A stretch of 64,000 nt of DNA from positions 82,605,862-82,669,861 of the forward strand of contig NC_065535.1 of NCBI RefSeq assembly GCF_932294415.1. The letters run 5' to 3'. The notes beneath the pieces were generated by a model, which had not been told where the DNA came from, searched no databases, and saw only the letters and a list, made by a program, of their open reading frames with translations. How positions within the stretch are numbered: the stretch's first letter is position 1; every line of letters starts with the position of its first letter. Positions 1,736 to 59,470 of the stretch are shown one piece after another. The stretch is from Quercus robur (Eukaryota; Streptophyta; Magnoliopsida; Fagales; Fagaceae). Position numbers and translations under genes: made by a program.

Positions 1736-1826
1736 TTTTATATTCTTCTAAAGGACTTCGTCGTTTGAAGTCGAGTTCCATGCTTCCAGGAAGCACACCT
1801 GCCATAACAAATAAGCCTGAAAGAGA
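1736..1826 (-). pseudogene. SEC11 exon-2 fragment (module 1 remnant)
   Basis: Read on the minus strand, this stretch aligns to exon 2 of the two full SEC11 copies. It has the same acceptor context (CTTTCAG then GCTTA), the start of the exon, an internal deletion of about 60 bp, and then codons for LPGSMELDFKRR covering the catalytic-serine motif. The donor GTAAGT of the other copies is CGAAGT here, so the splice site is lost. No other SEC11 exon is seen nearby. It is useful because it keeps Gly in the GSM motif, where both full copies have Glu. It is a dead fragment. Confidence 0.7.
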
Positions 1827-3000
1827 TTGCCAAAAAAAAAAATGTCATCTCCAAAAACTAAAAACAAACGAATCATTCATTTAGGGTTAAAGCCAAGAAA
1901 CCATATCGTGGTAGTAAATACCCAAATAAAGATAGAAAACCTGACGAGAAAGCTAGGGACAAGTGAAAGGCTCGTTATTCAGGGAGAAATCCAAGAAGCC
2001 AAAAGGGACGTTAGATTACACCATATCAGACCATCACAACACAGCTATACGAGAAAATTAGAGAGAATCCCTAGTAAAAACAAGAGTTTCCCATGCAGTA
2101 TTCTAGGAATTTGTAGTAGAAGAGTAGTTTTGACATGCACTACTAGGATAACTTCCTCTCTTCCATGAAGACCTCCTCACCAAAATCTCTCTATAAGAAT
2201 TATTCCAGCGAGGCCACTTGGATTCAAGTCTTAAACTTCACAGTTTTGTGCACCTTTAGGAATAAAGCAACAAGGCTGCAAGAGTTGGTGCCGAAAACCT
2301 TGTGGCCCAACTCCTGTTATGAAGTACATATATATATATGAGATTACATATGCTAACCTATTGCAAGCTAACATTTACTACTTGATAATATTTCCTTTGG
2401 GTTTTAGTAATTTGCATGCAGGTCATTAGCAACAACAGAAAAATAAAAGGTCACTGTGCTGTTGAAAGTGGGAAAAGGTTCTTTCTATGGCAGTGGATGG
2501 AGAAAGGTTTCTTCTGTGACAAAAGAAGACGCAGAAATGTTCCTTCTGTGGTAGAAGAGGAGAGTAAGTCCATTTTGCATGAATGTTCTTCGGACTTTGG
2601 ATTTAATGTTTGTGCACAGACTTGGCAGCGGCAAGATGAGACCTCCAAGACCATTCTGCAAAAATGCTGGACCTGGTTCCAAACTAGAAGCTGTCTAGTG
2701 GTTTCAGGACATGTGTCTAGGGTGTGAAAAAGTAGAAAAAGGACCCTAACAATGGATCAGCTGTAGACCAACAAAGTGCACAGCTTTGCAAGTACAAGAT
2801 GGTTTTTCCAAGTCTCAACTATAATCTGCCATTAGACATGATAAATAATTCAAACACATTATAGCTACAAGATAAGCATCAGTTTTGAAAATGATTATCA
2901 AGTGCATCATTGCACCTTTTGTATTTGTGTTCAGCTGTCCATAACCTTATAAATTTTGCATGTAAAATCATATAGTTTTTGGATTAGCTGCAGAGGTGTA
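1827..3000. other. Intergenic, no gene recognised
   Basis: Two opposed open frames of about 100 codons (2416-2727 plus, 2451-2654 minus) overlap. Neither shows a domain, repeat or splice context I recognise. A (TA)n run sits at 2327-2339. I see no RNA gene here. Confidence 0.4.
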
Positions 3001-4879: not shown

Positions 4880-7800
4880 CTAATTCTTTGAGGTAGCGAT
4901 CAGCAATGCCAATGTGCCTAAAACTATGTACTGCAAGAAGATATGGTAATTTAGAATTGAAATATGCAAGTTTAAACTGGTAAAAAGAAACAATTTAATT
5001 TCACAAGCAGTGCCAAGCCCAAGGAAAGGTTACATAATTTAAACTGAATGAACTTCTTTTGTCATAAGAAAAGGAAAATGGATGATTTGAAGCAGTTTTT
5101 GAGAAAATGTCTCATTTCTATTGATAGAAATAAAGGATTTTCATGCTGCAAAAACTTTAAAATTTCAACACAAGCAAACCTTGATTATGGGGTTTTCAGT
5201 AAGGATAAGTTTGATCCAACCAACATAAGGCAACAACCTGCATGGAAAAGGAATATAATTGAACATTGTGCAGATCAAAGGAAGTCATTGATTAGGTTTC
5301 TTTTGGATACAATATATTGACAAGTTATGACCATATGATGAAGATCCTGGAAGAATGATCAAACCTTTGGCTTCATGAAAAATTGAGATGCTTAATGTAC
5401 AGGTCTATGGTTTATTATATTTAAACGCCAAATAGGCACTGATAATCTAATGGACAAAGACACTTTTAAAGAGCTGGATATGCTTAGTCATTTAATTTTA
5501 GCCTAGGCAAGCCCCCAAGCATGAGGCACAATCCCCATGAAGAAGCCAATCAAATTAATTTGTCATTGATATGACCATGCCAAGGCAGGGACAGCACCAC
5601 AGGAAAGCAAGCACTGAGGGACAAAAGGTTCATCCCACATGGGAGCAAAGACCTGCAAGCCTCCGGTTTCCATCAGCAGCTTGCTCTTGTGTGGTATTGG
5701 TGAATGAACACTATTTGCCTTGCAAGAGTGTGTTGCCTAGACAACCCCCAAGCATTAGGCTCAACCCCATGAAGCCAACCAAATGAATCAATCATCGGCA
5801 CGCTTGGACAAAGCAGGGTCAGCACCTCAGGAAGATATTTTATCATGCTCATGCATTTAGCTCCATTATGCTCGATGTGGACATTTGTGGAGAGAGAGAT
5901 GAATGATTGTATGTTTGAAGATGTGAAAGCCTAATTGGTTCAAATGAAACGGGCTTTCATAAGAACATTGTTCAAATGATCCCAGGTTTTGGGTCCTATC
6001 AATATCCTCTCTCTTGTAGATTTTATTGAATATTTATTTGTTTGTTTTTAATTCCCATTCATTTGTAGTTCTTTATACTATTTTATGCATATCATTTGTA
6101 CATCAGGTAGTTCCAATTTTCCAATAAAAAATAATGACTTAGAAAAAATATTGACATAAACTGACATGAGTATATAAATCAACTTATGGTATCTCTAATA
6201 TAAGTTTATTTGTGATGTCCTGTTTATTAATTAAAAAACTTTCACTGTGCATAACTAAAATCTATATAACATTTTCTTCTAAAAAAAAATAAAATATCTA
6301 TATAACATTCTGAGAATGCTTTGGTCTTTTGACAAGTTGGTAGTAAAAGAAGAGGTATTATTCTACATGTGAACTTTACCCAACAACTCTCGCAATGACA
6401 TGGTGTCGTAGCAACCAACGTTGGCCTCGAGCATATAATATCCTGTCATCCAAATGATTACTGTCCCCTGATAAAATTAGCAGAAGGGAAATTAGAGTCA
6501 ATAAAGTGTAGTATTTGCTTAAACAGTATCATATGATTAAAATCACTCATACTAATACAATCAAACTAGATTTCAATTTGAAAGACAATATAAATTTTCA
6601 TGACTATGTCAGGTTTATGCAATCCCATAATAAAGACTGTCAAAGAGGAATTTCAATGATGAGCAATGATAAATTTAGAGATAAATAATATAGTACCTCT
6701 TGTGAGGATATAAACTTTTCCAGTATTTCGGTGCCCATGAACCTGACAAATAATAAAAGATGTATCTTTAGCGCAGATATATATGTTGTTAGAAATAAAC
6801 AGCAACGAATGAATATGGCCTGGTGCAGCAGAAGCAATTTTTTTTTTTTTTTTTGAGAAACAGCAGAAGCAATAAATTATTCACTTAATTGATTACATAA
6901 AAAGTTATAGATGTTGGGGTATAAGATAGGACTGACTGAATATAAAAGCATTAACCAATATTGAGGTAGGACAAAACCAAAAGGATGCAAAAATAAGATT
7001 GAAAAATAGAATAATAAAGGATAAATAACCTAGGAGCCACTACCTAGGCTTGCTTGGAGTCAGCGCCAAACAAGAGAGAGCAAAATCATACCATTCCAAG
7101 AGAACTTTTACTAATCAATTAATAAAACTGTCTCCATAGGAGTACAATACTGTTTTATATAGATTACTAAGACTAAACCCTAATTCTAATTGTAATTGAC
7201 TTAGGAAATCCTAATAATTGAATAACGAATATACTCTTAATTCTATGAAATTTAATAAAATACTATCAACTTCACTATCTAGATGTCAAGCCTTGGTGCA
7301 ATGACTTATGAATGAAGTTAAAATACAAACACATGTACTCTTGACTCTAGGAAATTTAATAAAATACCTTCTTCGTGATCAAGCCTTTGCTTCATGCCTT
7401 CTGAATGAAGTTATACACTTCAACTTATGTTAAAATGGACGGGTTTTGGTGTTGGAAGCAAGTTTGTTTCCAAGTGCTTCTTTGCCTAGGTTTCCAAAGA
7501 TTCTCAACCATTTTGGAGTGTTCGGCAAATAGATATACCTTATCTATGTTTATATCATATTGATATGGAAAAAGCAGGGACAAGTGAAGGCTGAGTGACA
7601 TTGAATAGAAAAAACACACAAATGAAAGACAAACAAGCTGTCAACAGAAAATTCTTACCGTGATTACTCGGTGGGAAATTGGAACATCAAGCCCCTGAAG
7701 AATGTACAAAAGATACTATTAGAGCATCCAATCTAGACGCTTAAAATTTTAAGTGAAGATGCACAATCAGCATATAAACCCACATCAAATACAACACCTT

Positions 7801-10424
7801 CTGGGAATTGTATTAATACCCCCTCTCATATCCAGGCCCAAAGAACCTAACGGATTGAGAGACCAATGGGGCCAACTAACTCAACTGAAGTAGAGAAAAA
7901 CAGGCCTGGCATGTGGAGCTAAAGCACAATGTATGGATAGCAGCAAAAAAAGAACATACATCTACATTGAAGAGGATGATTTCTCCTGCATGAATGGGAT
8001 CCTTGCTAATATTCAAGAACATGAGGTCACCCTGCCAGAGAATCAAAATATTATGCCAACAAACAGAATGAAGCCAAATAGAGCATTTAATAGTTAGGCA
8101 CTTCACTACATCTACATAGGAAGTGTCATAACATATTTATATGAAAAAATCCTACTAAGTCAGATTTATAGTTTAAACCCCTCAGTGATTAACAACGTGG
8201 AATTAAATTAAAAAAAAAACATTTAATCACATAACATATTAAAAAAAAGAGAAACAGTTACTCTTCCATAACATAGTTACATGAAAAAATCCTATTAAGT
8301 CGGATTTATAGTTTAGATCCCTCGGTGATCAACAATTGCTGAAATAAATTAAATAGACATTTAATCATATATATTCGCAAAAATATACCCAGAAATTTAT
8401 ATATTTAGGCCTCAAATATAGGACCAAAGAATGGTTATGAGGTGCAAAAAAGCTTTCCAATGGAAAAATCACTACAAGTGCAAAAGTTTCTCGTCGCAAA
8501 ATCACATATAGAGAAACAGTTACAATGTCAAAGACACACAAAACCTTTGTAGCGTAGACCTATGCAAACTCTGTAAGTGCTTTACTTGCCTTCCTACTGC
8601 AATATCCCCAAAATTTCTAGAATTCTTTTCCAGTGATCTCCTCTGAACCAGAATCTCTAGCACTCCAAGGACATTTTAAAAATTTTCTCAATGAACCTCG
8701 CTAGATTTGGGCTCTCTGGTTTCAACCTCACTTTGCTCACAATGGGTATATAAAAATTTCTATGAACTTGGCTTAATCAATGGAGTGTGAAAGAATGCTT
8801 AAGATCAAGAACAAAAACAAACTGAGGGAGACGAAGATTTTTCCTATTTTGCTCTCGAAACTCTCAAAAAATTATTTTTCTTTTTGCTCTCTCTTGGTGC
8901 TTTCAATGGCAGCAACACCCAGCCTAAAAAGAAAGCTCCCCATTCTATATTTTTTTTTCTACACAGCCAGCCTTAATACAAAAATGAAAGCCAGCCCTCC
9001 TTTTGTTCCACTACCCACATGTGCCATTGTAAAGAATCTCAGCTCCTTGTCTTTGGATTTTGTTTCAGCCTACTGCACTCAACAAACCACTACATGCATT
9101 TAATGAACTTCACATCAGTCACTTAGGCATACTTAAAAAAACAGAAGGCATCAAGTTGCTTCCTTTCAGTCAACAGAGCAAGAGGGCCTCTGCTGCTTGA
9201 GCAATCCAAAACCAGGGCAGAGGCCAAAAATCTCTGTGATGGGTACTGTCCGCGCTACATTGCTTGCTCAAGCAAGATTCTGCTAATTGTAATATTTTGA
9301 TGCAGCAACTGTTAACTGATTTTTTGGATTAAGAATTTTTCATCCTAGTCAAATTTCTGTCACGGAAATTAGCCATCTAAAATCCTAACACTAAATGCTT
9401 CACTGATGGAATGTATAAGGGTGAACACAGTATAAAATCTTTCATACAGCTTTCTCGGCAAACAGACAAAGTAAACCATGGAATACAAGGTTCTGTGTTG
9501 TTACTGGTACAACTACCAATGCATGGCCATCATCTGCCAGCAATTCCTATCACTACTTAGTAAACCCCCCAGTAATTTTCTCATAGATTTTTTTCCTGAT
9601 TGGTAAGTTATACACGCATCTAATGAATCTTGAAACCCACAATAAGGATAGGATTTGCCAATTAAATTAGAGCTCTTTGACATATAATTAACAATAAGAG
9701 TAATTCAAACATTCATTTATTATTATATTTTGGAATCCATTAATCACATTCACCACACCAGGAATAAAGAAAACCAAAAGCATTTGTATAATTAAAAAAA
9801 CTGAAGCAACCATCATAATTGTGACAACAAGAATACATCATTATTAAAAAAGAACTGCATTAGATACACAGCTTGTAAATGCAAAATAGGGGTCTAAAGA
9901 TACATCAAGCACTTTGCCACAATCAAATTGCAAAGAAAAACCAAAAAAAGTGTTATATACTACTAAAGGACTTACTCTCTTGATGCCGGGTTCCATGCTC
10001 TCAGAGATTGCAACTCCAAGAAGTGATCCAGGAGAATCAGCACCGGCTAGACATGCTAGTCCTTCAGATAATATGATAACTGACGAAAGAAATGAGACTG
10101 AAAAAAAAAATGCAACCCTTCTTAGAGCATGAAGAAGTAAACAGAATTTTTTTTTCAAGAACATCAAGTAGTAAACAGAAACTTTTCAAGATTCAAATAA
10201 GAAGCAACCTTGGTATCATATATAAACCAATAAGAAATTCAAGAACATGTCAAACATGTACATTTTGAGGGTCGTCGAGATAAGAAGCAAGCAGCTTTAC
10301 TGACACATAGTAAGAGCAATAAAAATGATGTGGGATTAGAGTACGGACCAAGATTGACGAGCTGAGGGAGAGGTCTGAATCTTCTGGATTTGACAGAGTC
10401 CACGGTATTTCTAATCCATCCCAT
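4880..10424 (-). CDS. SEC11: SEC11-like signal peptidase catalytic subunit, diverged copy A
   Basis: Eight exons on the minus strand join into one open frame of 182 codons: 10349-10424, 9976-10097, 7960-8031, 7659-7694, 6697-6742, 6380-6467, 5180-5237, 4880-4930. All introns are GT..AG at the same phases as copy B. SEC11 is the ER-membrane serine protease of the signal peptidase complex, using a Ser-His dyad with a nearby Asp. Visible here are S59 in SESMEPG, H98 in SHRVI, and the GDSN..DD segment (118-125). The protein is strongly diverged. The N-terminal membrane segment carries Ser-Glu (IILSEGL) where B has Trp-Lys. Nine extra bases precede the catalytic motif, and one codon is missing in exon 1. 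There is no stop or frameshift. It could be a relaxed or neofunctionalised gene, or a recent pseudogene with no breaks yet. Confidence 0.8.
6826..6873 (-). mobile_element. Tail-only retroposition scar with 13-bp target-site duplication
   Basis: CAGCAGAAGCAAT occurs at 6826-6838 and again at 6861-6873, flanking 22 bases (T16 then GAGAAA). The homologous intron of remnant C (about 11916-11935) has a single copy and no insert, so it is an empty site. On the minus strand the insert reads TTTCTC followed by A16, the extreme 3' end and tail of a retroposon. It lies in intron 4 of SEC11 copy A. Confidence 0.75.
8560..9330. repeat. Block in SEC11 intron 2 shared by copies A and B
   Basis: This part of intron 2 of copy A (between exons at 7960 and 9976) is closely matched by about 20320-21200 in intron 2 of copy B. 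Matching phrases include TTTGCTCACAATGGG and AAGAACAAAAACAAACTGAGGGAGA, broken only by small indels. It was therefore present before the duplication. Its makeup (alternating T-rich and CTTGAGCAA-type phrases) looks like an old inserted element, but I cannot see ends or target duplications. The 107-codon frame at 8780-9103 lies inside and is not convincing. Confidence 0.35.
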
Positions 10425-11211: not shown

Positions 11212-11789
11212 GTCGGCGTAGAGATGTGCTTGTTTCTCTTTGGCTTACCAACAATGAACTCGTTTGTTTGTTTGTTTCAAATTTCAATTAATTATTTTCG
11301 TTTTCGCATTGTTATGGTCAATGAGTAAAATGGGAACTCCTATATAGATTAATGTGTTTCTCCTTTGCAGATTGTTGGTGATAGATGGTCATAATGTTTT
11401 TTTTTTTTTTTTTGGTTGCTAAAAAGATGATCATAATGGTAGATATATAAAGGAGTTGAAGTCTTGTGTTTTAATTATGTGATAAAGGATTGAGTTGGAA
11501 TTCCCTTTCTGTATGCTAATCTGGAGGTAGTTTTGATTATAGTTCTATCAACTCTGGACAAAATGTGTTGTCCCATTGAAGCTGTAGAACTACTACTGTC
11601 AAACTAGATTTCAATTTGAAAGCCAATAAGAATTTCATGTTTACGCAATCCCATAATTCAGTTTTTTTTTTTGACATAACTTCCATTCTAAATAAATAAA
11701 GACTGTCAAAGAAGAATTTCAATGTTGAGCAATGATAAGAATTGAAAAAATAACTTCATTCAACCTTTTAGAGATAAATAATATAGTAC
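10425..11789. other. Spacer between SEC11 copy A and remnant C
   Basis: The first 300 bases are the upstream flank of copy A and match the flank of remnant C at 12150-12440 (shared phrase GTTGGGTTGTGGCAC). From 11187 a (GA)n run and the array spacer recur, including the ACCAACAATGAACTC block. From about 11590 the sequence matches SEC11 intron 5 (TAGATTTCAATTTGAAAG). No independent gene is seen. Confidence 0.5.
11383..11438 (-). mobile_element. Short retroposon tail with target-site duplication
   Basis: AGATGGTCATAATG at 11383-11396 and AGATGATCATAATG at 11425-11438 flank T17 followed by GGTTGCTAAAA. Module 1 (about 402-416) has one uninterrupted copy. The homologous place in module B (13673-13725) carries T13 GGCTGAAAAAA, also between repeats, so one ancestral insertion inherited by both modules is the simplest reading. 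Confidence 0.6.
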
Positions 11790-12145
11790 CTTTTGTGAGG
11801 ATATAAACTTTTCCAGAGTTTCGCTGCTCATGAACCTGACAAAGAACAAAAGTTGCATCTTTAATGCAGATATGTTGTTAAAATTAAACAGCAGTAAATG
11901 AATATGACCTGGTGCAGCAGAAGCAATAAATTATTCATTTAATTAATCACAGCAAAAGTCATTGATGTTGGGATAAAAGTTATACTCACAGTTTTCTAAT
12001 TCTAATTGACTTGGGATATCCTAATTATTGAATTAAAAATAGACTCTTGTAAAACAGATCGTATGAGTAATAAAAATGATGAGGGGTTAGAGTACGGACC
12101 AAGGTTGATGAGATCAGAGAGAGTTTTTATTCTGATCCATCCCAT
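11790..12145 (-). pseudogene. SEC11 remnant C (exon 5 and a shortened exon 1 only)
   Basis: On the minus strand, 12100-12145 is exon 1 with the same start context and the same donor (GTCCGTAC), but shortened to MGWIRIKTLSDLINL by a 33-bp in-frame deletion relative to copy B. 11790-11835 is exon 5, reading VHEQRNSGKVYILTK with intact splice sites. Exons 2-4, including the catalytic Ser and His, are deleted between them. Exons 6-8 are absent on the other side. It cannot encode a protease. Both remaining exons keep open frames and splice signals, so a short spliced transcript is conceivable. Confidence 0.8.
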
Positions 12146-12649
12146 TTTCTTTTTCTTTGCTTCTTCTACTGCCTACTGGGTATGAAGTGTGAACTAGTAT
12201 AAATTATGAAGATGCACAAACTTTTTTTTATCTTTTTTCTTTGGAACGTTAGAAAGAAGAGGCAGTTAGTTTGGTTTGTGTAGAACTTTTGGTCTGTATA
12301 TATAGTTGGTGGCATTGTTGAGTTGGATCGTGTATATATTAGGTAGGAATGGGGGAATTTTGGGTTCCCAGAGTAAGCGTTGGGTTGTGGCACTATGAAT
12401 AATGTTGGACGTGTGGATTTAGGTGGGTCCAAAATCCAAATGGATGAAAGAAAGAGGAATTCTACTACCATATAAAATGTCACAACTTTTATTATAACTA
12501 TCTTACATAGTAGATTGAGACTGGCTGTTTATCATTTTCACATGAACCCACTATTTTTTTTTTTTTACTACTCATAATTTGCTGTGGACAGTTGTGGCAA
12601 AAGTTGTAATTAATTAAGTTGTGATTATAAAATTTTTGTAGGAGAAAGT

Positions 12650-14589: not shown

Positions 14590-17500
14590 CTAATCCTTTG
14601 AGGTAATGACCAGCAATCCCAATGCGCCAATAATTATATACTGCAAGAAGACATGGCAATTTAGTTCCTACTTATAAAAACAAACAATTTAATTTCACTA
14701 CAAGTGCCAAGCCCATGGAAGGTTACATAATTTAAACTGCATGAACTGTTTTTGTCGTAAGAAAGGGTAACTGCATGATTTGCAGCAGTTTTCAGAACTG
14801 TCTCCTTTCTATCTATGGAAATGAAGGATTTGCATGTCAAAAGCTTTGAAATTTCAACACAGGCAAACCTTGATTATGGGTTTTTCAGTCATGATAATTG
14901 TCATCCAACCAACATAAGGCAAAAACCTGCATGGAAAAGGAATATAGTTGATCATGCAGATGAAAGAAAATCATTCATTAGTTTTTTTTTTTTTTTTTTG
15001 GGATACAATAAATTGACAAGTTTTGACCATATTTGGATCCTTGTGGTAGAATGGCAAAACCTTTGGTTTCATGGATAATTGAGAATGTACAGGCTATGCA
15101 CAGATAATCTAATGGACAAGATTAGCCAAGGCAAGTCCCCAAGCATGAGACGTGACCCCCACAAAGCCAACCAAATAGATCTCTCATTGATATGCCCATG
15201 CCAGGAAGAGGTCAGGAAAGCAAGCACTGAGGAACAGAGGTTCATTTCCGCATGGGAGACCTGCAAGTCCAGTGGCCATCGGCAGCTAGCTCTCGTGTAG
15301 TATTGGGTGAAATGAATACCATCTGCCTTGCAAGAGTGTGCCACCTAGTCAACTCCCATGCATGAGGCCCAATCCCATGAAGCCAACCAAATGAATGTCT
15401 TTGGCACGGCCATGCCAAGGCACATGCAGCACCTCAGTAAATATTTTATCACACTCACTCGTTTAGTCTCATTATGCTTGATGTGTACACCGTGGAGAGA
15501 TGAATGATTTTACTTTTGAAGATGTGGAAGCCTAAGTGGTTCAAATGATTGTCCTTTCTCTTGTAGATTTTATTGAATCTTCTTATTATTTTTTATTTTT
15601 TTTTGGTATTTAATTCCCATTCTTTTGTAGTTCTTCATACTGTTTTGTGCATATCATGTGTACATGAGGTAGTTCCTATTTTCCAATAAAAATTATGACT
15701 ATAAAAAAAAGTGACATAAACTGAAATTCATAAGATCAACTTATGGTATCTCTAATATAAGTTGATCTGTGATGCCCATTTAAAAACTTTTCACTGCATA
15801 ACTAAAATCTATGTAACACTCTGAAAATGCTTTGATCTGTTGAAAAGTTGGTGGTAAAAAAAAAGGTATTATTCCACGTGTGAACTTTACCCGACAGCTC
15901 TCCCCATGACATGGTGTCGTTGCACCCAACGTTGGCCCTGAGCATACAATACCCTGTCATCTTTAGGATTATTGTCTCCTGATGAGCAAAGGGAAATTAG
16001 TGTCACCAAACGTGTGGAACTTGCTAAAAAAATATCATATGATTAAAATCACACATACAAATACTGTCAAGCTAGATTTCAATTTGAAAGAATATGAATT
16101 TCATGGCAATCTTAGGTTTACGTCCTATGCAATCCCATAATACAGTGTGGGGTTTTTCCCTTTCTTTGCTTTCATTCTTTATTAAAAAAATAAATAAATA
16201 AATAAATGATTGTCAAGAAGAATTTCAATGTTGAGCATTGACAAGAATTTAAAAAAAAAAAAAAAAGACTTCATTCAACCTTTTAGAGATAAATAATATA
16301 GTACCTTTTGTGAGGATATAAACTTCTCCAGTATCTTGCCGCTCATGAACCTGACACAGAATAAAAGATGCATTTATAGCACTGATATGTTGTTAAAAAC
16401 AACAATGAATAGCTAGAAAAGGTGCTAGATAAGGTGGTGTTTGAACCCCATAATGCTTTTGTCAAAGAGGGACAGATCCTGGACTCAGAGTTGATAGCCA
16501 ATGAATGCTAGGATAGTCAACCCAGATCAGGCAAACCACGGATGTTGTGCAAGTCAGATTTGGAGAAAGCATACGATCATGTGCATTGGAAATTTTTGTT
16601 ATATATGCTTCGTAGGTGCAGATTTGGTCCTAGATGGAGACATTGGATATTTTGTGTATTTCCACAATTCGATTTTCGTGTATTCCATAGTTTACAGGGG
16701 TTGACAGGTTGAGAAAGGGAAATCCTTTATCCCCTCCTTTGTTCATTATTGTTATGGAAGCCCTTAGTATGATGTTGGAGAGAGCTAGGAGAGGCAATTA
16801 TATTTCAGGGTTCTCAGTGAGTGGACATTCTGGTGGTTAATTAGAGATCTCACATCTCCTCTTTGTGGATGATATGCTGATTTTTTGTGGAGTGGATCCA
16901 GAGCAAATATGGCATTTGAAAACAGTGTTTGTTTGGTTTTAGATCATATCTTGTTCTAAGATAAAATTTGGGAAAACCTGAGCTGGCTCCAGTTGGAGAT
17001 GTTCCTTCCGTTAATGTTTTGGCTGGTATTTTAAGATGCAAGGTTAAGTTATCCATGACTTATTTAGGTCTCCCCCTAGGAGCTACTTTCAAGGCGAAAG
17101 CCATATGGAATGGTGTCCTAGCGAGAATGGAGCAGCAGTTGGCTAGGTGGAAAAAATTTTATCTTTCCAGGGGGGTCAAATTATGTTGCTAAAGAGCACC
17201 TTATCCAGTCTGCCTACCTTCTACTTACCTTTGTTTCATATCCCAATGAGCGTCTCTAGGCATATAGAAAAATTAAAGAGGGGCTTCTGTAGGGAGGGAT
17301 AGGAGATGAGTTTTAAGTTTCACTTGGTTAATCAGACGACTATTTCTGCACCAGTTCAACATGGGGGGCTGTTTACTCATGACTTGGTTCTTTTTAACAA
17401 GGCTTTGTTGGGAAAATGGTTGTGGAGATATGCTATGGAGAGGAATGATTTTTGGAGAAAGGTAGTAGACAAGAAAGGGTGGGATGCTTTCCATTGTTTT

Positions 17501-20500
17501 GTTAAGGTGGGAGATGGCTCTCATATTAAATTTTGGTGTGATCCTTGGTGCTAGGGACTTCCTTTGAAAAATAACTTCCTAGAATTATAAAGTATTGCTC
17601 GTAATAAAAATGCTTCAGTGGCTGAGCTGTTATCTTTTTCAGAGGATAGTTACATTTGAAAAATCAGTTTCATTTGACCAGTTCAAGATTAGGAGTTAGA
17701 GTTGGATTTCTCCTTTACGGATCTGATATATTTTTTCATTGAGACCGAATGGGGTGGATGAATGAAGTTGGAAACTCTCTTTTCCGGGGGGTTTCAAAGT
17801 TCTCAAAGTTCGATCTTATTATAGGGCATTCACTAATCCGCCATCTTTTCCATGGAAGCCATTGTGGAAACCAAAAGTTCCCACAAAGGTTAGTTTCTTC
17901 CCTTGGATAGCAGTGTTGGGAAAAATTTTGATTGTTGACAATTTGCGGAGGTGGCAAGTGGTTGTGGTGCAATGGTTTTGTATGTGTAAGAGAAATGGGG
18001 AGACTAACGATCACTTACTTCTACACTGGGGTAGCTCGAGGGTTGTGGAATATGGTGTGTTCATTATTTGAGGTTCATTGGGTCATGTTGTCATGCCACA
18101 TGGTGTTGTGGAGCTTCTCGCTAGTTGGATAGGCAAGTTCAACAAACTCAGATCTTATGGTGATCTGGAGTATGATCCTTCTCTACCTCATGTGGGGTAT
18201 TTGGAGGGAAAGAAATGCACCCACTTTTGAAGGGAATGAAAGATCAATTCATGATTTGAAGTTTCCTTCTTTCAGACTGTTTGAGTGGCCAAATGCATCG
18301 AGTTTTTTTACCTTCAGTTCTTTGCCTGATTTTCTTGATTTTTGTACTTTCATTTCTATTAAGATTAGATATTCTGCTAGTATCATAGCACACTGCCTGT
18401 GTGCTTTGGTTCATTTTATTTTCTCATCTTATTTCCATGAAGTTTTTACTTATCTATCTATCTGTCTGTCTATATATATATATATATATATATGAATATG
18501 ACTTGGTGGAGCAGAAGTAGTAAATTATTTACTTCATTGATCACAGCAAAAGTTATTGATGTTGAGATTTTAATATAGGATCGACTGAATATAAAAGAAA
18601 CCCAAAAAGCATTAACCAACTGATTTACTGAGGTAAGACAAAACCAAAAGGATGCAAAAATAATATTGAAGAATAGTAAGACTAAGGATAAATAACCTAA
18701 GAGCCAATATCTAGACTTGCTTGGAATTAGCATTAAACAAGAGAACAAACCTAGGAGTCAACAAGGTTGACTAGAGTTAGCACCATACCATTCCAAGACA
18801 ACTTTTATTAATCAATAAAAGTGTCTTCATTGGAATACAGTACTGTTTTATATAGACTACTAGGACTAAACCCTAATTCTAATTATAATTGACTTCGGAA
18901 ATCCCAATTATTGAATTAGAAATTTACTCTTGGCTCTAAGAAATTAATAAAAAACTAACAACCTAACCAACTGAAGGTCGGGCCTTAGTGCGATGGCAAG
19001 TGCCTTCCAAAAAAATTTAGGAGAAAAGCTACCTACCAATCTCCTCTCCCAAACCCTACAAAAGTGGAAGCTTGTGCATTGGGTACGACCTTTTCCTAAT
19101 AACCTAATTAACTACTTAGACCTTTTACTAATATATATGATTGTGCATGTAACTAAATCTTCAATTCCCAGTGGTTTTTCATCATTAATTTGGGGATGTC
19201 AGTTGATAATTCAATACAAATCACAACTGCCCGCTGCAGATGGAAAAATTGCAAAGGTAGGTAATATGATGGGCTTGCTCCTTCCTTCTTCTCGGTTGGT
19301 TACCTTGCTTGATGTCTTGTGAATGAAGTTATATACTTCAACTTATGTTAAAATGGATTGGGTTTTTGGCCTTGGATGCAAGTATGTTTCCAAGTGTTTG
19401 CATTGCCTAGGCTTCCAAAGATTCTCAACTATTTTGGAGTGCTCAGCAAACAGCTACACCGTACTGATATTTTATCATGTTGATATGGTAATAGCAAGGA
19501 CAAGTGAAGGCTGGGTGACATTGAATAGAAGCAACATAGAAATGGAAGACAACAAAGCTGTCAATTGAAAATCTTACCTTAATTACTCGGTGGACAATCG
19601 GAATATCATGTCCCTGAACAATGTGCAAAAGTTACTGTTAGAGCATCCAATCTAGAAGCTTAAAATTTTAAGTGGAGATGCACAATCAGCACATAAACCC
19701 ACATCAAATACAACACCTTGTGGGGCTTGTATTAATACCCCCTCGAACAAAGTAGAGAAAAACAAGCCTAGCAAGTGGAGTTAAAGAACAATGTATGGAT
19801 AGCAGGGAGGAGGGGAGGAACATACATCTACATTAAAGACGACGATTTCTCCTGCACGAAGAGGGTCCTTGCTCATATGCAAGAACAAAATGTCACCCTG
19901 CAAGAGAATCAGATAGTTATGCCAAATAATAGAAGCATTTAACAGTTAAGCACTTCACTACATCTACATAAGAAGTGTCATACAATATCTATATGAAAGA
20001 TTCCTATTAATTCGGTTTTATAGTTAGACCCCTCAGTGATTAACAATGTGGAATTAAATTAAATAAACTTGTAATTAGACAATAATAATAAATATATAAT
20101 CTAGCAGTATATATATTCACAATAATATGCCCAGCAGATTATATATTTAGGCCACAGATATAATACCACAGCAGTAAAAATATTGGTGACACAGAGAATG
20201 GTCACAAAGTAGAAAACAAAGGTTAATATTTCCAATAGAAAAACCACTACAGGGGGAGAAAATCAGTTTCGTCGAAAATCACTAAAGAGAAAGAGTTACA
20301 TTGATAATGATTCACAAAACCTTTATAGCCTAGACCTATGCAACCTCTGTAAGCGCCCTACTTTCCTTCCTACTGCAGCACTCCCAGAAACTCTGGAATT
20401 GTTTTTTAGTGATCTCCTTTGAACGAGAACCTCTGGCTTTCCAAGAACCTCTTGAATATTTTCTCAGTGAACCCTACTAGACTTGGACTTAGTGGTTTCA

Positions 20501-23278
20501 ATCTCACTTTGCTCACAATGGGATTGAAATTACATGTGTGTACGTAAAAAAAAATTTATGATCTTGGCTTAATCAATGGAATGTAAAAGAATACTCAATA
20601 TCAAGAACAAAAACAAACTGAGGGAGAGAAAGATTTTCTTTTTTGGCTCTCAAAACTCTAACACTCACAGCTGCAAAACAATGACAGGATCTTAAGATTT
20701 TCTTTTCTTTTCTCTCTCCTGGTGCTCTCAAAAATGTCAGCACCACCCAGCCTAAACAGAAAGCTCTGCTTCTATATTTTTTCTACACAGTCAGCCTTAC
20801 AGAAATGAAAGCACAGCCCTTCCTTTTGTTCCACTGCCCACACGTGCTATGTGTAAAGACCCTCAGCCCCTTGTCTTTTGATTTTGTGTCAGCCTACTGC
20901 ACTCGACAACCCCACTGCATGCATTTAATGTAGCTTTCATCCAGTCACTTAGGCATGCTTAAAACAGAAGGCTTCCAGCAGCTTCCTTTAAAAGCTTCAT
21001 GGAATTCAAAAACTTAAGAGCTTGCTTGAGTAAGTTTTTATTGGCTCAAGCAAGAGGACCTCTTTTGCTTGAGCAATCAAAAACAGGGAAGAGGCCAAAT
21101 CTCTGTCTGATGGAATTCCTATTCATGCTACAGTGATTACTTGAGCAAGATTCTGCATATTGGAATATTTTGATGCAGCGACTGTAATTGGATTTTTGGA
21201 TAAAAAATTTTCACCCTCATCTCATTATACTGTCATGGATATTAGCCAACTTAAATCCTAGCACTATATACATCAAAGATGGATCATATAAAAGTGAAAA
21301 CTGATACAAGCAGCCATTAAGAATCAAGCAACATGTATATAAGTAGTGCTTAGAATCTCCACTTTCACATGAATGTAGGTATTCACTGCTTCATTGTCAT
21401 AAAATAGAATCTCTCATACAGCTTTTTCAGCAAATAGTCAAATAAAGTATTTTATAAAAAACCCAAGATCCTGTGTTGTTACTGGTACAACTACCAATTT
21501 ATGGCCATCATCTGCCTTCTTCCAGCAACTGCTATCATAATTTCATAAACCCCAGTAATCTTGCATAGATTTTTTTTTTTTGCCAAGAGCCTTGTAGCTC
21601 GATTGGCACCTCATAGTGTTTCTAACAAAGACATCCAGGTGCAAATCCCTCCACCCCCAACTATAGAATTAAAAAGATAGTATTAACAGTCAAAAACAGA
21701 TTTTTCTTTTCCCCTGATTCGTAAATTATAGGCGCACCCAACCCATGACCTCACCCGCCACCTAGGACTTATAAGGACTGGAGGCGCCAGTTGAATTAGA
21801 GCTCATTGGCATATAATTAACAGTAAATATAAGTTTTTTCACTATTTTAATCCAACTGATGAGATTCCTCACATGCTTGATTGACACAGTACAACCATTC
21901 TAGACAATTTGATCATTTACAATGGAGAAAACTGAAGCAAACACCATGATTATGATAGCAAGAAAACATCATTATTAAAAATGAACTGCATTAGATGCAC
22001 AACTTGTAAATGCAGCTGCATTGGACCAAAATAGATGTCTCAAGATACATCAAGCACTTTGGTACAATAAAATTAAAGGAAAAAAAAAGTTATATTCTAC
22101 TAAAAGACTTACTCTTTGGAAGCCGGGTTCCATGCTTTCAGAGAGCACAACTACAACAGGTGATTCACTACCAGTTATACATATTAGTCCTTTCCATATA
22201 ATGAGAGCTGATGTAAGTATTAAGCCTGAAAGAGATCACCAAAAAAAAAAATTTAAAAAAAAGGCCACCATTAGAACATCAAGTAGTAAACAGAAAATCA
22301 CATCCCCCCCCCCCCCACTTTTGTTGTTACGTAATAGTGGCGGATTGAACCCCGTTCCTGGTACAAGACCACACTAGGGGCACGTTTTGTATATTGTAAT
22401 GGTGAATTAGGAATTTGAATCATTATTACAATGCATACATGCACTCCCATGGATTTTGAATCCATGACCTCACTCACCCTCCACCTTGCACTAAATGTGA
22501 TGCCTATGCAAGTATTTCATCATTATGTCTGTGCAAGCATTTCATTGCACTGCGTGCATGTTTGGCACGGCTTTTGCCTTTTGTTTCTAAGCCATGTACG
22601 GCTTTTTAAAACCTTGATTCCTCTTACTTTTTTTTTTTTCACTTTTTTTCAAAATACAATATATTTTAGCACAAAAAGTTTTCAGCAAAAAACTAAAATA
22701 AGTTATTTCCAACCAAACAAACAGTACGGCTTTTTAAAACCTTGATTTCTTTTACTTTTTTTTCGCTTTTTTTCAAAATACAAGTATATTTTAGCGCAAA
22801 AAGTTTTCAGCAAAAAACTAAAATAAGTTTTTCCCAACCAAACAAACAGTACATTATAAATTTATAATAGAAGGGCTGAAATGCATCAAATAGCACAATA
22901 ATATGACACACTCTTACAGCTTGCTTCAAAGCCCACATAATGCTCTTTCTTCTGCTACATAACACTATAACTTTTAAACTCCCCACCCCACCCAAAAAAA
23001 AAAAAAAAGTCAAAATTATTGGATTGTAAAGCTCCTTTACAAGATTTCAATGAATATAGTATCAAAAATAAACCTATAACAAAGTCACAAGAACATGTAA
23101 TCAAACTCATTTGAGGGTTGAAATATAAGAAGCAGCTTTAGTGAGAACATGTAATGTAGAGAGTAATTAATAGTAAAAATAATGTGGGATAGTACGGACC
23201 AAGATTGACAGCCTGAGAGAGAGTTTGTCTGAGTTGAATGGATTTGATAGAGTCCACGCCCTCTCTGATCCATTCCAT
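14590..23278 (-). CDS. SEC11: SEC11 signal peptidase complex catalytic subunit, conserved copy B
   Basis: Eight minus-strand exons (23200-23278, 22113-22225, 19826-19897, 19578-19613, 16305-16350, 15891-15978, 14869-14926, 14590-14640) join into 180 codons, the usual length for plant SEC11, with all introns GT..AG. The product is the ER-membrane serine peptidase that removes signal peptides. Seen are an N-terminal segment [18 protein letters not shown], a membrane segment (about 29-45), the catalytic motif [13 protein letters not shown] with S57, VHRVIK with H96, GDNN..DDR (116-124), [16 protein letters not shown], and a second hydrophobic end finishing LLVITSKD. Glu56 replaces the usual Gly of SGSM. 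The second residue is Glu where MGWI is common in plants. Intron 4 holds a LINE and intron 2 a SINE. It is probably the functional copy here. Confidence 0.93.
16412..18491 (+). mobile_element. 5'-truncated L1-type LINE in SEC11-B intron 4
   Basis: ATGAATA at about 16405-16411 and again at 18492-18498 flanks the element. The same intron in copy A has one copy of the site (about 6809-6815) and no LINE, so it landed after the duplication. It starts inside reverse transcriptase ([20 protein letters not shown]-like). It continues with thumb and connection sequence ([30 protein letters not shown]) and a C-terminal zinc-finger-type region (LRRWQ...[21 protein letters not shown]). It ends in TCTATCTGTC/TA repeats. 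Several stops and frame changes make it inactive. It is the same family as the element at 28638-30884. Confidence 0.85.
21578..21700 (+). mobile_element. tRNA-derived SINE in SEC11-B intron 2
   Basis: The sequence has an A-box-like GTAGCTCGATTGGC followed about 45 bases on by a B-box-like AGGTGCAAATCCC, the layout of a tRNA-derived SINE. AGATTTTT flanks it on both sides (from 21567 and from 21698). Intron 2 of copy A reads straight through the site (TCATAGATTTTTTTCCTGATT at about 9582), so the insertion came after the duplication. Confidence 0.6.
22300..22380 (-). repeat. Minus-strand SINE-like fragment with poly-C tract
   Basis: Read on the minus strand, 22338-22358 gives GGGGTTCAATCCGCC, a good Pol III B box. 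A run of 14 C lies next to it at 22304-22317. No matching A box or target duplication was found. Confidence 0.3.
22597..22850. repeat. Tandem duplication of about 125 bp in SEC11-B intron 1
   Basis: The phrase from TACGGCTTTTTAAAACCTTGATT to CCAACCAAACAAACAG occurs at about 22597-22722 and again at 22725-22850, with a few differences and a shorter T-run in the second copy. The CCAACCAAACAAACAG end looks like a MITE terminus. Confidence 0.6.
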
Positions 23279-23601: not shown

Positions 23602-23956
23602 GTGTCCAGGGTCTATTTGGAATCTGTTTATTTTGTTGAAATTAAAAACTTTTTACTGAAAGTACGGTAGATAAAGGTAAAAGTTAACTGAAATAGTATA
23701 GTGAGACTTATAAATAGTACCAAAAAGTGTAATGAGACCATGAATAGTAGTGTGTCCAAGGTCTATTTGGAATCTGTTTATTTTGTTGAAATTAAAAACT
23801 TTTTACTGAAAGTACGGTAGATAAAGGTAAAAGTTAACTGAAATAGTATAGTGAGACTTATAAATAGTACCAAAAAGTGTAATGAGACCATAAATAATAG
23901 TAAAAATAAGTTGAATGGTAAAATAAGTTGCAAAATTAATCGTGCCAAACAGACAC
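23602..23956. mobile_element. MITE with an internal 150-bp tandem duplication
   Basis: The left end reads GTCTATTTGGAATCTG and the right end CGTGCCAAACAGACAC, an imperfect terminal inverted repeat pair. From 23602 a 150-bp block repeats at 23752 almost without change. A related single-unit element lies at 54518-54716 (shared phrase AAATAGTATAGTGAGAC). It has no coding capacity. Confidence 0.6.
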
Positions 23957-27303: not shown

Positions 27304-30300
27304 ATGGCGAAATTTGAATCCAACTCCAAGTTAGTTAAAACGAGTTTGGAGTCAAGCAAGAAAAGCAAAATGGAACGATGGTGGCGGTGGCGGAGTGGGA
27401 GCGAGAAATGGGTGCCATGGCTGATACTGCTTCTTCATATCGTCTCCATTCTCATTTTCACCAGAGGCTTCCTCCTCACCCGCACTGAGCTTCCCTTTTA
27501 CAGCCATTGCTCCGATGCTTCCCAATCACCTTGCTTCTCTTCTTCTTCTTCTTCTCCTTCAAATTCTTCGCGTTGTTGGACCAAACCCGCCATCGATCGC
27601 CTCGTCATCATTGTCCTCGACGCACTCAGGTATTTCCTATCCCTATTTTCTCTCTTTCTTCTTCTTCTTCTCTTTTTTCAAATTATTATATATATTGTTT
27701 TGAATTTTAGGTTTGACTTCGTTGCTCCGAGTACATTTTTCGAAGGTTAGTGATCGTTTTTACTGTTTCGGATTAGGGTTTAAAGGATTAAGTAGAAGAA
27801 GAAGATTGATTGAGTTTGAGTGAATGTTTGACAGAGTCGAAGCCATGGATGGACAAATTGAAAGTGATACAAAGACTGGCTTCGGAGCGAGGATCATCGG
27901 CTAGGATTTTCAAAGCTATTGCGGATCCACCTACCACCAGTTTGCAGCGTTTGAAAGTCTACTTCTTTTCCTTACTTCACAATCACTAATACTTTACTTC
28001 TTCTATCTGTATTTGTGTGTGAATTTTGGTCTGCACTTTATTTATTCATTACTATTATTATTCAAAAAAAGAAAAAAAAACTATTAATATGGTGATGCTA
28101 AGAACTGGAATTCAATGTGTCCAGTGAGCTTTTAGCTCAAATAACAGTCACTTCTTCTTTGCATTAGTAACGGGTGGGGTTCAAGAGTCAAGACTCTCCG
28201 AGTGAGTGTACGACTTACCAATGGAAAAAAAGAGAGAAGAAGATTTGAGCTAACTGGTATTCAGATAGTAATGTAGTTGAAAATATTATGATAAATTCTT
28301 TTGTTGTGATGAAAAGGTGTCATGTAATGCAGCTCCTATGGAGACCCTTTTGTTGAGTTTGTTGGTTTCGGTGGAATTTCAATTAATTTTGGATGTGTTG
28401 GTTTCCTTAAAGCATTCAATACTTTTAGTTGTATTACTGGCCGTGAAGGACTCGAACAAAATTTACATGTGAAGCATGAGCTTTACCTCTAATAATGTCT
28501 TGTTCCTCTTGTAATATTTTCAGGGCCTGACAACTGGTGGACTGCCCACTTTTATTGATGTTGGGAATAGCTTTGGCGCTCCAGCAATTGTTGAAGATAA
28601 CTTTATACATCAGGTGGGTTTTTGATTTCTTTTGCTCACATTAAGGACTTTCGCCTCATCAGTTTGATGGGTAGTGTGTACAAGCTGCTGTCCAAGGTGT
28701 TGGCTAATAGGTTGAGGGTGGTTTTGGATAACCTCATCTCTGAGACTCAAAATTCATTCGTTGGCAGAAGGCAGATTCTGGATTCAATGCTTATTGCAAA
28801 TAAATGCCTGGATAGCAGTTTAAAGAGCAGAATGCTGGGTGTGGTTTGCAAGCTGGATATTGAAAAAGCTTATGACCATGTGAACTGGGAGGCCTTGTTT
28901 TATTTGTTGGGCCGGATGGGTTTTGGTTTAAAATGGAGGGGGTGGATTAAGGCTTGCGTTTCGTCTGTCCATTTTTCAGTCCTGGTAAATGGATCCCCTG
29001 AAGGTTTTTTTGGAAGCTCTCGTGGGTTGAGACAAGGGGACCCACTATCCCCGCTTTTGTTTCTTTTGATTATGGAGGTTTTAAGTAGACTCTTGAAGAA
29101 GACAGAGGAGTGTAATCCTATTCGGGGTTTTCATGTGGGAGTTGTGAACTCTGTTGGTGTGCGTATTTCCCATCTGTTATTTGCTGATGACGCTATCTTA
29201 TTTTGTGATGCCTCTAGGGATCAGCGGCTGTCCATAAGGTTGGTGTTGTCGTGTTTTCAGGCTTTTATGGGTTTGAAGGTCAATGTAGGGAAAAGTGAGA
29301 TTGTCTTTGTTGGGGAGATGAATAATCTAGATGCTCTGGCTAATATTCTTCACTGTAGAGTGGGCAGTTTGCCTATGAAATATCTAGGGATGCCATTGGG
29401 AACTTCTTTTAAGACAGCCTCGATTTGGAATCCTATTTTGGAGAAAATGGAGAAGAAGCTATATGGGTGGAAGCGTCACTATTTATCTAAGGGTGGAAGG
29501 CTCATGTTACTTAAGAGTACTCTCTCAAGTCTCCCAACGTACTTTTTATCTCTTTTTACTATTCTTAAAGCTGTGGCTGCTAGATTGGAAAGTATTCAGA
29601 GGAATTTCCTTTAGGGGTCTTCTGAGGGGAGTTTCAAATATCCTTTGGTGGCTTGGGAAAATGTGTGTTTACCCGTTGAGATGGGTGGTTTGGGGATAAG
29701 AAGTGTGGTGCCTTTTAATCAAGCTTTATTAGGGAAATGGCTGTGGAGATACGGTCGTGAAGTTACCCATCTCTGGCGGCGAGTTATCTCCTCTAAATAT
29801 GGTGAGGGTCAAGGGGGGTGGAGTACTAATGTTTGTAGGAGGACTCATGGGTGTGGCCTTTGGAGAAGCATTAATGTAGGGTGGGAGAGCTTTTCTAAGC
29901 ATCTGACTTTTGTAGTGGGGTAAAACACTCGTATCTGCTTTTGGCATGATAGGTGGATTGGTGACAATACTCTAAAAGTTCTCTATCCTAAGCTCTATGT
30001 GTGTTCAATGGTCAAGGATGCTTGTATCTCTAAGGTTTTGTGGATTCCAGAAGGGGGTACTATTGGAGTGTGGAATTTAAGGTTTTATAGAGCTTTTAAA
30101 GATTGGGAGTTGGCTGCATCTTTTTCTCTACTTCAGCTTATCCAAACTCGTATTCCTCGGGGTGATAGGAGAGATACTCTTTATTGGTGACTTAAAGGTC
30201 AGTAAGTTTGACACTTGGTCTTACTACCATGCAATTCGGGGTGCTTCGAATTCTTTGTTTCCTTGGAAGGGTGTTTGGAAACCAAAGATTCCTAAGTGTG

Positions 30301-42856: not shown

Positions 42857-43667
42857 CTTTCTCAAAAAAGAAAAAGAAAAAGGATTGTTATTATATACGA
42901 TAATTATGATCAGAATCAATATTTTAGTTTCGTGTTTGACTATTTATATTATATATTAAATATCAAATGGTCATATCATGTATTATATTAAATTCGAAAC
43001 ATAAATAGAATTTAAATCAAATCCAAATTAAATTCTAATTGTTTAATTTTTTTTTTTAATTTTGGCGCCAAGCACAAAAACCGAGGGGACTAGTAATAAC
43101 TCACATGTAACTATTGCTTTGACATTATGTAAGTTTTTTTTTATAAAACTATAATTTTTTCACAACTTTGATTTACTAATAAATTTTGAGTCATTACCTA
43201 TTATTTTTTGCATAAATTCATTACCTTGTTTCTACCACTCATAGTTAGCCACATAAATGTTGTGACAAAAGCTGTGAAGCAAAAGTTGTCCACAAAATTT
43301 CTCTTTAAATATCTATAGTCTTATATATCTATATTTATCTTTATATGTTATATGAAATAGTATGACAACATGATAATTTACTATTTACGTTACCACCTTG
43401 TGTGACTTAACTTTTACTCAAAAAGAAAAGAAAAGAAAAGAAAGGTAAGTCACAAGAAATCATTGATTAAAAGTTTTGATCAATTAGTGTGTCACTAACT
43501 GTTTTAGACAATCTTTCTCAAAAAAAAAAAAAAAAATTGTTTTAGACAATGTCATTTGCTCTCTAGATATTTTGATAAATGCCTTTTAAAACTATTGCTT
43601 TAAATTTAAACTAAAACAATGTATTTATTAGTTTAATTTAGTTTGAAAGTGACTTCTTATTATGATT
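42857..43667. other. AT-rich intergenic DNA
   Basis: No gene seen. It contains a short AAAAG repeat (43422-43444) and the tail-only retroposition scar at 43500-43550. Confidence 0.4.
43500..43550 (+). mobile_element. Tail-only retroposition scar with 13-bp target-site duplication
   Basis: TGTTTTAGACAAT occurs at 43500-43512 and 43538-43550. Between the copies is only CTTTCTC, an A-run of about 17 and one T. The CTTTCTC plus A-tail end is the same as in the scar at 6826-6873 (read on its minus strand), so the same donor family may be involved. Confidence 0.75.
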
Positions 43668-45042
43668 GGCATTTCTAATATACACCAAATTTAGCCCTAC
43701 ATAGAAAATCTAAATATCATTTTCTCTTATTGGCTTCTAGCATTTTGAGTGCTTGGTAAAGCAAATGTTGTCTTCATAAATTAGAAACTTAAGGCTTCGT
43801 TTGGGAGTTCATAAAGGGACGGAATAGAATGATCATAAGGGAATGGAAATGAATGGAATGTATTTAAGTAAGGGAAATGAATGGATTGGAATTATGTAAC
43901 CTTGATTGGATGTTTTAAAATAAATGAATGAAAATGAATGGAATGTAAGTAATCTTGTTTGAGAGTAACATAGAGGGAATGAAATGAAATTATTTTATTA
44001 CAATATTACTTTTAAACCCTTATTTTAAAATAAAGAGTTGAGTATATAGGGGTATTTTAGGAGTTTTAATACAAAATTCATTAAATCGAATTCCATTCCT
44101 TTCCATTTCTCCCAATTTCAAGAGGAATGAAAATTTGAGATTTTAAAGGAATAGAGAGGAATGAGTGTACCCTCCTACTCATTCCATTCCCTCCTACTTT
44201 TTTTTAGAGAATTTCAATTTATGGCATCCGCTCTTGATGACAGTTATTTATCATCAGACTAAGACACTAATTAGTTTTTTGGTGTAGGTGGGAATTGAAC
44301 CCCAGTTTTTTGGTATTTCTAATATACACCAAATTTAGCCCCACATAAAAAATCTAAATATCATTTTCTCTTATTGGCTTCTAGCATTTTGAGTGCTTGG
44401 TAAAGCAAATGTTGTCTTCATAAATTAGAAACTTAAGGCTTCGTTTGGGAGTTCATAAAGAGATGGAATAGAATGATCATAAGGGAATGGAAATGAATGG
44501 AATGTATTTAAGTAAGGGAAATGAATGGAATGGAATTATGTAACCTTGATTGGATGTTTTAAAATAAATGAATGGAATGTAAGTAATCTTGTTTGGGAGT
44601 AACATAGAGGGAATGGAATGAAATTATTTTATTACAATATTACTTTTAAACCCTTATTTTAAAATAAAGAGTTGAGTATATAAGGGTATTTTAGGAGTTT
44701 TAATACAAAATTCATTAAATCTAATTTCATTCCCTTCCATTTCTCCCAATTTCAAGAGGAATGAAAATTTGAGTTTTTAAAGGAATAGAGAGGAATGAGT
44801 GTTCCCTCCTACTCATTTTATTCCCTCCTATTTTTTTTAGAGAATTTCAATTTATGGAATCCGCTCCTGATGACAGTTCTTTATCATCAGACTAAGATAC
44901 CAATAAGTTTTTTGGTGTAGGTGGGAATTGAACCCCAGATTTCCATTCCCTCCCACTTAGACTCTTAAACAAGGGAAGGGAATAATATTTTAAAATTATT
45001 CTTTACATTCTATTCCATTCCCTTCTCCCAAATGAGGGCTTA
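43668..45042. mobile_element. Nested MITE plus SINE with a 644-bp tandem duplication
   Basis: A terminal inverted repeat pair, AAGGCTTCGTTTGGGAG at 43791 and CTCCCAAATGAGGGCTTA at 45025-45042, brackets GGAATGGAATGAA-rich DNA. A minus-strand SINE fragment (GGAATTGAACCCC, CATCAGACTAAG) sits inside. A unit starting GGCATTTCTAATATACACC at 43668 repeats from 44312 to about 44940 with few changes, copying both the MITE left part and the SINE. The order of events is MITE, then SINE insertion, then tandem duplication. Confidence 0.7.
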
Positions 45043-58730: not shown

Positions 58731-59470
58731 ATGGCACATGAATCCCAAGATGCGGATGGTAAAATGTGGCCTCCCCACATGGAACACATATTTATAGAGA
58801 TTATGGTAGAGGAACAAATAAAGGATAATATGGAGAATGGTGTTTTGAAGGGCCCTATGTGGGAAACAATGACACAAGAACTTAATAAAAGGACTGGTAA
58901 AAATTTCACCGCTAAGAAAGTCTTCCAAAAGCACAATAGGCTTTGGGGTAAACAATGCAAGTGGAGTCAATTGCTGAATCGTATGGGGTTGGGGTTGGGG
59001 TGGGATGAGGCCACCCAAATTGTTACATGCATCGACAAGGTTTGGGTACATGTGGTGGCGGTATGTTACTTTATGCATTTCGAGTTTCATGTTAGTATGG
59101 TATGTCTTTGTATTGTTCTGATTACTTTGATGCCTAACAATTGTTCCTATGCTTGTGTTGTTGTAGGCTAATCGGAACGCAAATAACCTGCGAAAGAAGG
59201 GATGCCCCGACTACGATAAGCTGAAGCAGTTGTTTGCCCCCAGTACTGCAAATGGGCACCTTTAGATTTCATCAAACACACTCGCACTGAACTCCGATGA
59301 AGAGTGTGCACTGGAGGAGGAGGAGCTTGCCGCTGATGTTGCTCCTATCCATCTTGATGATAACTATTACACCCCCAACTTGGATAGTATTCCTTGGATT
59401 ACGGAGGAGACTGATGTTGACCAAACCCAAGCTGCAGGCAAGCGTCCTATGCAAGAAGCAAGTGCCAAGG
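58731..59470 (+). CDS. Myb/SANT-like domain protein, second unit, with an in-frame stop
   Basis: Exon 58731-59060 (110 codons) carries KMWPPHMEHIFIEIMVEEQ, PMWETMTQELNKRTGKNF and HNRLWGKQCKWSQLL, then GLGWDEATQ, a second Myb/SANT-like domain. A GT..AG intron spans 59061-59166. Exon 2 continues in phase (ANRNANNLRKKGCPDYDKL) to a TAG at 59263-59265, giving 142 codons. Beyond the TAG the same frame stays open for about 70 codons, acidic and Ser/Thr-poor (DEECALEEEELAADV), to a possible donor GTAAGA at 59470. The TAG thus looks like a premature stop in a once longer protein. The downstream part is split from the rest by a LINE starting at 59636. Confidence 0.65.

Follow-up and report, generated by a model that had tools for sequence, protein, structure and literature searches.

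A fast-evolving copy of SEC11 with an intact reading frame was found in a 64,000-nucleotide stretch of the Quercus robur genome (hereafter the window; NC_065535.1, positions 82,605,862 to 82,669,861). SEC11 is the catalytic subunit of the signal peptidase complex of the endoplasmic reticulum (ER), and a structure for signal-peptide recognition is described in PMC13385932. The window holds four SEC11 units in tandem, all on the minus strand: copies A and B, and two remnants, C and D. A full, canonical SEC11 of 180 codons on another contig, copy E (C35:44770965-44777670), was used as the outgroup. On the sequence evidence presented here, copy A is best read as a protein-coding SEC11 paralogue whose function has shifted, and we put the probability of this reading at roughly one half.

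Gene structure and catalytic residues of copy A

Copy A runs from an ATG at 10424 to a stop at 4880, and its eight exons form a frame of 182 codons without an internal stop (Table 1). Each of the seven introns has the form GT..AG, and the intron phases are those of copy B. The exon lengths of the two copies differ in exons 1 and 2 only, by 3 and 9 bp respectively, both multiples of three. A sequence-only reading of this DNA had claimed that all eight exons keep frame, phase, donor and acceptor and that the Ser, His and Asp positions of the active site are conserved, and both claims held. No intron loss, stop, frameshift or splice-site loss was found in the eight-exon model.

At an E-value limit of 0.001, copy A matched only human SEC11C (1.4e-39) and SEC11A (1.5e-36 and 2.9e-36) among solved structures, and its residues 9-178 aligned to SEC11A, which is nearly the whole length. 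Its TIGR02228 score was 63.1 bits, above the curated cut-off of 51.85, while its Pfam S24 score was barely over the cut-off (24.1 vs 23.3). In the same profile scan, a Pfam S26 match was present for copy B and not reported for copy A. A genome-wide search with Pfam S24 gave no match, probably because the exons are short. Eukaryotic SEC11 belongs to MEROPS family S26B.

Residues of copy A were numbered after human SEC11A such that S56 is the nucleophile. In this numbering, copy A retains the equivalents of S56, H96, D116, D121 and D122. Of these, S56 is named in PMC13385932, whereas the residue numbers used here for His and Asp do not occur in its text. Copy A resembles SEC11A and SEC11C in having an N-terminal hydrophobic helix, an S-x-S-M-E-P nucleophile motif, and HRV and GD(N/S)N..DDR motifs. 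The N-terminal segment has been rewritten, as the sequence-only reading had noticed, and is still hydrophobic, with a best 19-residue Kyte-Doolittle mean of 2.01 (from residue 25) compared with 2.00 in copy B (from residue 26); the membrane helix of copy A is called purely as a hydropathy estimate. A further hydrophobic stretch lies toward the C end in A, B and E.

Changes at the substrate-recognition residues

In the 2026 structure of human SEC11A with bound signal peptide (PMC13385932), the gatekeepers are Trp36 and Thr153, and the S3 and S1 pockets are formed by Val50, Val52, Val84, Pro93, Val95, Met57 and Phe61. Residues 57 and 95 are given as Met and Val in the results of that paper and both as Ile in a passage of its methods. 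The SEC11A chain sequence has Met at 57 and Val at 95. All nine residues are identical in B, in E, in human SEC11A and SEC11C and in the Arabidopsis protein. Copy A is changed at seven of the nine (W36S, T153K, V50G, V52A, V84L, V95S and F61I), compared with 60 of 157 among the remaining aligned positions (P = 0.023, one-sided). It thus differs from SEC11A and SEC11C at both gatekeepers and most of the S1/S3 pocket residues, and also by a three-residue insertion before the groove strand. Judged by side-chain volume, all but one of the five pocket changes put a smaller residue in place of the ancestral one, from which we guess at a looser recognition of the P1 and P3 positions. What exactly the gatekeepers do is, according to PMC13385932, still to be addressed.

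Divergence of copy A from copies B and E

Over 179 aligned residues, A and B are identical at 108, A and E at 102, and B and E at 151, so the earlier statement that A and B differ at a large share of residues stands. When residue changes were polarised with E over the 179 codons, 54 fell to A alone and 5 to B alone; at 11 of the remaining sites E was unlike both A and B, and at 12 all three were unlike. The exons of A and B are 79.7% identical at the DNA level. Noncoding differences between them amount to 781 of 3976 aligned sites (19.6%); the count covers introns 2, 3, 5, 6 and 7 together with a 3' flank of 600 bp, and leaves out introns 1 and 4. The pairwise estimates by the NG86 method were Ka 0.235 and Ks 0.241, and three other methods gave Ka 0.22-0.26 and Ks 0.19-0.22. 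A silent divergence of about 0.2, taken at the substitution rates of woody plants, places the A/B duplication probably tens of millions of years ago, so that orthologues of copy A should exist. Multinucleotide changes were rejected as the source of the divergence: codons with one, two and three differences numbered 63, 20 and 2 of 179, about as independent changes give.

The pairwise ratio of about 1 probably averages over two unlike branches, with B constrained and A above 1 under a clock. Branch-specific ratios of non-synonymous to synonymous change (omega) were estimated with a custom three-taxon codon model fitted to A, B and E. With all branches free, omega was 2.2 for A, 0.27 for B and 0.05 for E; the last value, on a long branch, marks SEC11 as a highly constrained protease. 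The neutral branches of A and B were then made equal, because the two copies are neighbours of the same age. Under this clock, omega was 2.48 for A, 0.24 for B and 0.05 for E, and omega A = 1 was rejected (likelihood-ratio statistic 12.7, P = 3.6e-4); in simulations under the clocked null, the observed statistic was reached in 0 of 105. Giving A a neutral branch twice that of B lowered omega A to 1.84 (P = 0.019).

The mutation rate of copy A is not plainly raised, given that a three-way noncoding comparison of A, B and C assigned 12, 13 and 13 lineage-specific differences to them; exon 5 was excluded from this comparison, the stretches are short, and the ends of the C pieces around exon 5 were dropped as gaps. 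Remnant C has four derived bases of exon 5 in common with copy A, relative to B and E. This makes C the sister of A, so it serves as a rate check and not as an intron outgroup, and it dates the start of the fast change to before the split between A and C. Should some of the 13 differences assigned to B belong to the common stem of A and C, the A branch would be longer than that of B, perhaps up to twice. On balance, omega of copy A is about 1 or above, and is likely above 1, though insecurely so.

Residual constraint on copy A

In a neutrally evolving copy, replacements would be of random kind; those of copy A are not. The 54 replacements had a mean BLOSUM62 score of +0.52, compared with −0.31 for neutral change in the same codons (P = 0.0002), or −0.17 (P = 0.0007) when the neutral changes followed the mutation spectrum of A itself. 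Fit to the family was scored on a SEC11 profile built without A or B, from E, the Arabidopsis protein and human SEC11A and SEC11C. Copy A, with 66 replacements from the inferred ancestor, scored 198 bits, while 400 open-frame neutral simulations averaged 169 and 1 of the 400 reached A; a human-only SEC11 profile likewise gave 1 of 400. Conservative replacements and family fit, both tests being conditioned on an open frame, together argue that the protein of copy A is seen by selection. The catalytic S and H and both D of the DDR motif were jointly kept in 27 of 400 neutral simulations.

The open frame itself had been taken by the sequence-only reading to speak against a dead copy. Alone, it is weaker than was claimed: in neutral simulations with 60, 76, 90 and 110 substitutions, the frame stayed open in 12, 8, 6 and 4% of runs. 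The argument gains strength only once frameshifts and splice sites are counted as well. Indels in the introns predict 6.9 frameshifting events in 540 bp over both branches, and none is present in A or B. For copy A, the chance of no stop (about 0.04-0.12), of no frameshift (about 0.03, with half of the 6.9 on A) and of keeping all 28 splice bases (about 0.05, assuming 0.11 changes per site) combine to about 1e-4. Since copy A was picked for being intact, all such frame-based arguments are weakened. Decay driven by methylation was rejected, as only 5 of 76 changes on the A branch lie at CpG and an excess of C>T is absent.

Drift, decay and other explanations

The main and serious rival is near-neutral drift. 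On this view copy A is a duplicate that is relaxed or dying, was perhaps weakly constrained early on, and by chance has not yet acquired a stop, a frameshift or a splice loss. We regard this as a real possibility, and a number of results favour it and weigh against a shift in function. The divergence of A and B over all exons equals that of their introns (P = 0.73), Ka is close to Ks, and their identity differs little between the three codon positions (138, 147 and 143 of 179, or 77, 82 and 80%). Copy A is changed at 30 of 82 columns that are invariant between plants and human and at 17 of 50 elsewhere (P = 0.85), as drift predicts. Its sister copies in the array, remnants C and D, have both decayed. 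The excess of changes at the recognition sites is modest and concerns nine positions; with three backbone positions added (12 in all), P becomes 0.054.

The excess of omega A over 1 depends on the clock. Without it, neither omega A = 1 (log-likelihoods −1408.05 vs −1409.07) nor omega A = omega B (1.32; −1408.53) was rejected, although these fits require a neutral branch of A about 20 and about 10 times that of B, respectively. When the neutral branch of A was set to 3 or 5 times that of B, omega A was 1.62 (P = 0.06) or 1.45 (P = 0.15), and significance was gone. Polarised counts (64 non-synonymous and 12 synonymous) gave an omega A of 1.05-1.23, which is no significant excess over 1. Without codons 14-52, near the two indels, the value fell to 0.88, so that the excess is partly carried by exons 1-2. 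The silent sites of E are close to saturation relative to both A and B, which would inflate the silent count charged to A, and we therefore take the polarised omega A as a lower bound. The sequence-only reading had named a dN/dS near 1 on the A branch, coupled with a lack of transcripts, as the sign of a young pseudogene; the pairwise ratio is of that kind, while the A branch is above 1 under a clock and indistinguishable from B without one.

Standing against drift are the mildness of the replacements and the fit to the family, the small joint probability of an intact gene, and the scarcity of CpG changes. Mild replacements that ignore the old invariant sites would fit a protein that still needs to fold, with its old job no longer exact. 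Of the options that the sequence-only reading had offered (a neofunctionalised subunit, a poisoning variant or a gene under relaxed selection), altered function is thus favoured, and a young pseudogene is disfavoured by the constraint tests, short of proof.

Copy A could instead be a regulatory or 'poison' subunit that joins the signal peptidase complex, cleaves poorly, and so damps or retunes it. Family-level fit is kept alongside an insertion ahead of the groove strand and the replacement of the gate residues W36 and T153, as such a subunit might show, but a pure decoy would not need the Ser, His and Asp that copy A has kept, and we think this explanation improbable. That copy A is a redundant working signal peptidase of unchanged specificity is very improbable: its catalytic residues and family profile score are kept, but both gatekeepers and five of the seven pocket residues, all identical in B, E, human and Arabidopsis, are changed, and by no method is its omega clearly below 1.

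The favoured explanation, a functional shift, could work as follows. Tandem duplication of SEC11 would have produced a copy A whose protein has been pushed off the ancestral function. The protein would be made, with its N-terminal helix anchoring it in the membrane of the ER, and would act as a serine protease with an altered, probably looser, recognition of the c-region of signal peptides. It might serve a subset of substrates within a signal peptidase complex, or else act alone, with copies B and E carrying the housekeeping activity. More specifically, and only tentatively, the gate and pockets of copy A may have been re-tuned under positive selection with the catalytic residues kept, so that a signal peptidase of the ER whose substrate range is new would exist beside the conserved enzyme. 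If so, copy A would be a natural test of the gate and pocket residues, since it swaps them yet keeps the catalytic ones. Among the titles and starts of abstracts listed by a literature search, there was no report of such a SEC11 copy, and a search for SEC11 neofunctionalisation found no paper.

The SEC11 array and other genomic copies

Copy B shares with A the eight-exon structure and a Glu beside the nucleophile, and differs from it in keeping all nine recognition residues and in being constrained under a clock. Two remnants with large losses had been described in the array, and this was borne out (Table 1). When the A and B exons served as blastn queries, exons 2-4 and 6-8 were not found in remnant C, and in remnant D only pieces of exon 2 were found.

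Table 1. Positions of SEC11 features in the window.
Feature	Position	Strand	Remarks
Copy A exon 1	10349..10424	−	ATG at 10424; 76 bp, 3 bp less than the 79 bp of copy B
Copy A exon 2	9976..10097	−	122 bp vs 113 bp in copy B; first transmembrane segment, substrate-groove strand, nucleophile motif SESMEPG
Copy A exon 2 key codons	Ser 9999-9997; gatekeeper W36S 10068-10066	−	
Copy A 9-bp in-frame insertion in exon 2	10021..10029	−	Gly-Ser-Leu; directly upstream of substrate-groove strand
Copy A exon 3	7960..8031	−	
Copy A exon 4	7659..7694	−	Catalytic His codon 7673-7671; V95S directly before
Copy A exon 5	6697..6742	−	
Copy A exon 6	6380..6467	−	Asp codons 6465-6463 (D116), 6450-6448 (D121), 6447-6445 (D122)
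Copy A exon 7	5180..5237	−	Gatekeeper T153K codon 5212-5210
Copy A exon 8	4880..4930	−	Contains stop codon
Copy B	14590..23278	−	Eight exons, 180 codons, GT..AG introns; nine recognition residues conserved
Copy B exons	23278-23200, 22225-22113, 19897-19826, 19613-19578, 16350-16305, 15978-15891, 14926-14869, 14640-14590	−	
Remnant C	11770..12165	−	Internally deleted exon 1 region, 12165-12080; exon 5 and flanks, 11855-11770
Remnant D	1741..1836	−	Two exon 2 pieces with flanks, 1836-1812 and 1800-1741; interior deleted, donor GTAAGT lost

Genome searches covered the 785.7-Mb assembly in 42 contigs (the window lies on C2) and scored the best candidates only, so that weak further copies may be missed. 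A search with a plant SEC11 gave 18 matches, made up of the window array, the C35 locus and a fragment of exon 2 on C5; copy A as query gave 15, made up of the array and the C35 locus. Copy E has the exon lengths of copy B and the phases of copy A, and its introns gave no blastn match to the SEC11 copies in the window. About 6.5 kb downstream of E lies a second, decayed SEC11 copy (C35:44784157-44786395), in which exons 5-8 are recognisable and exon 7 is broken; together with the window array, this indicates tandem duplication of SEC11 at both loci. The fragment on C5 (C5:19411780-19411911) is an isolated exon 2 with two stops and 84% identity to exon 2 of copy B over 89 bp.

The residue beside the catalytic Ser is Glu (SESMEPG) in both copy A (9976-10097) and copy B (22113-22225), whereas it is Gly in E (SGSMEPG) and human (SGSMEP). 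The signal peptidase signature leaves this residue open. With B looking constrained, A and B may represent an old second SEC11 lineage.

Other features of the window

A 150-bp tandem duplication with 98% identity lies upstream of copy B (23602-23901), and a relative of it with 82-83% identity is found at 54520-54720. A second tandem duplication, of about 640 bp and 94.7% identity, occupies 43666-44942. Retroelement pieces of the long interspersed nuclear element (LINE) type are present at 28601-29614 (plus strand), 60007-60456 and 63120-63665 (both minus strand), with Pfam RVT_1 and RVT_3 above their cut-offs and Exo_endo_phos just below. A stop-to-stop frame of 787 codons at 51892-54255 on the minus strand encodes a pentatricopeptide-repeat protein with an E motif. 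An open frame at 58731-59171 scores 57.0 bits with Pfam PF12776, a DNA-binding domain of the Myb/SANT-like kind.

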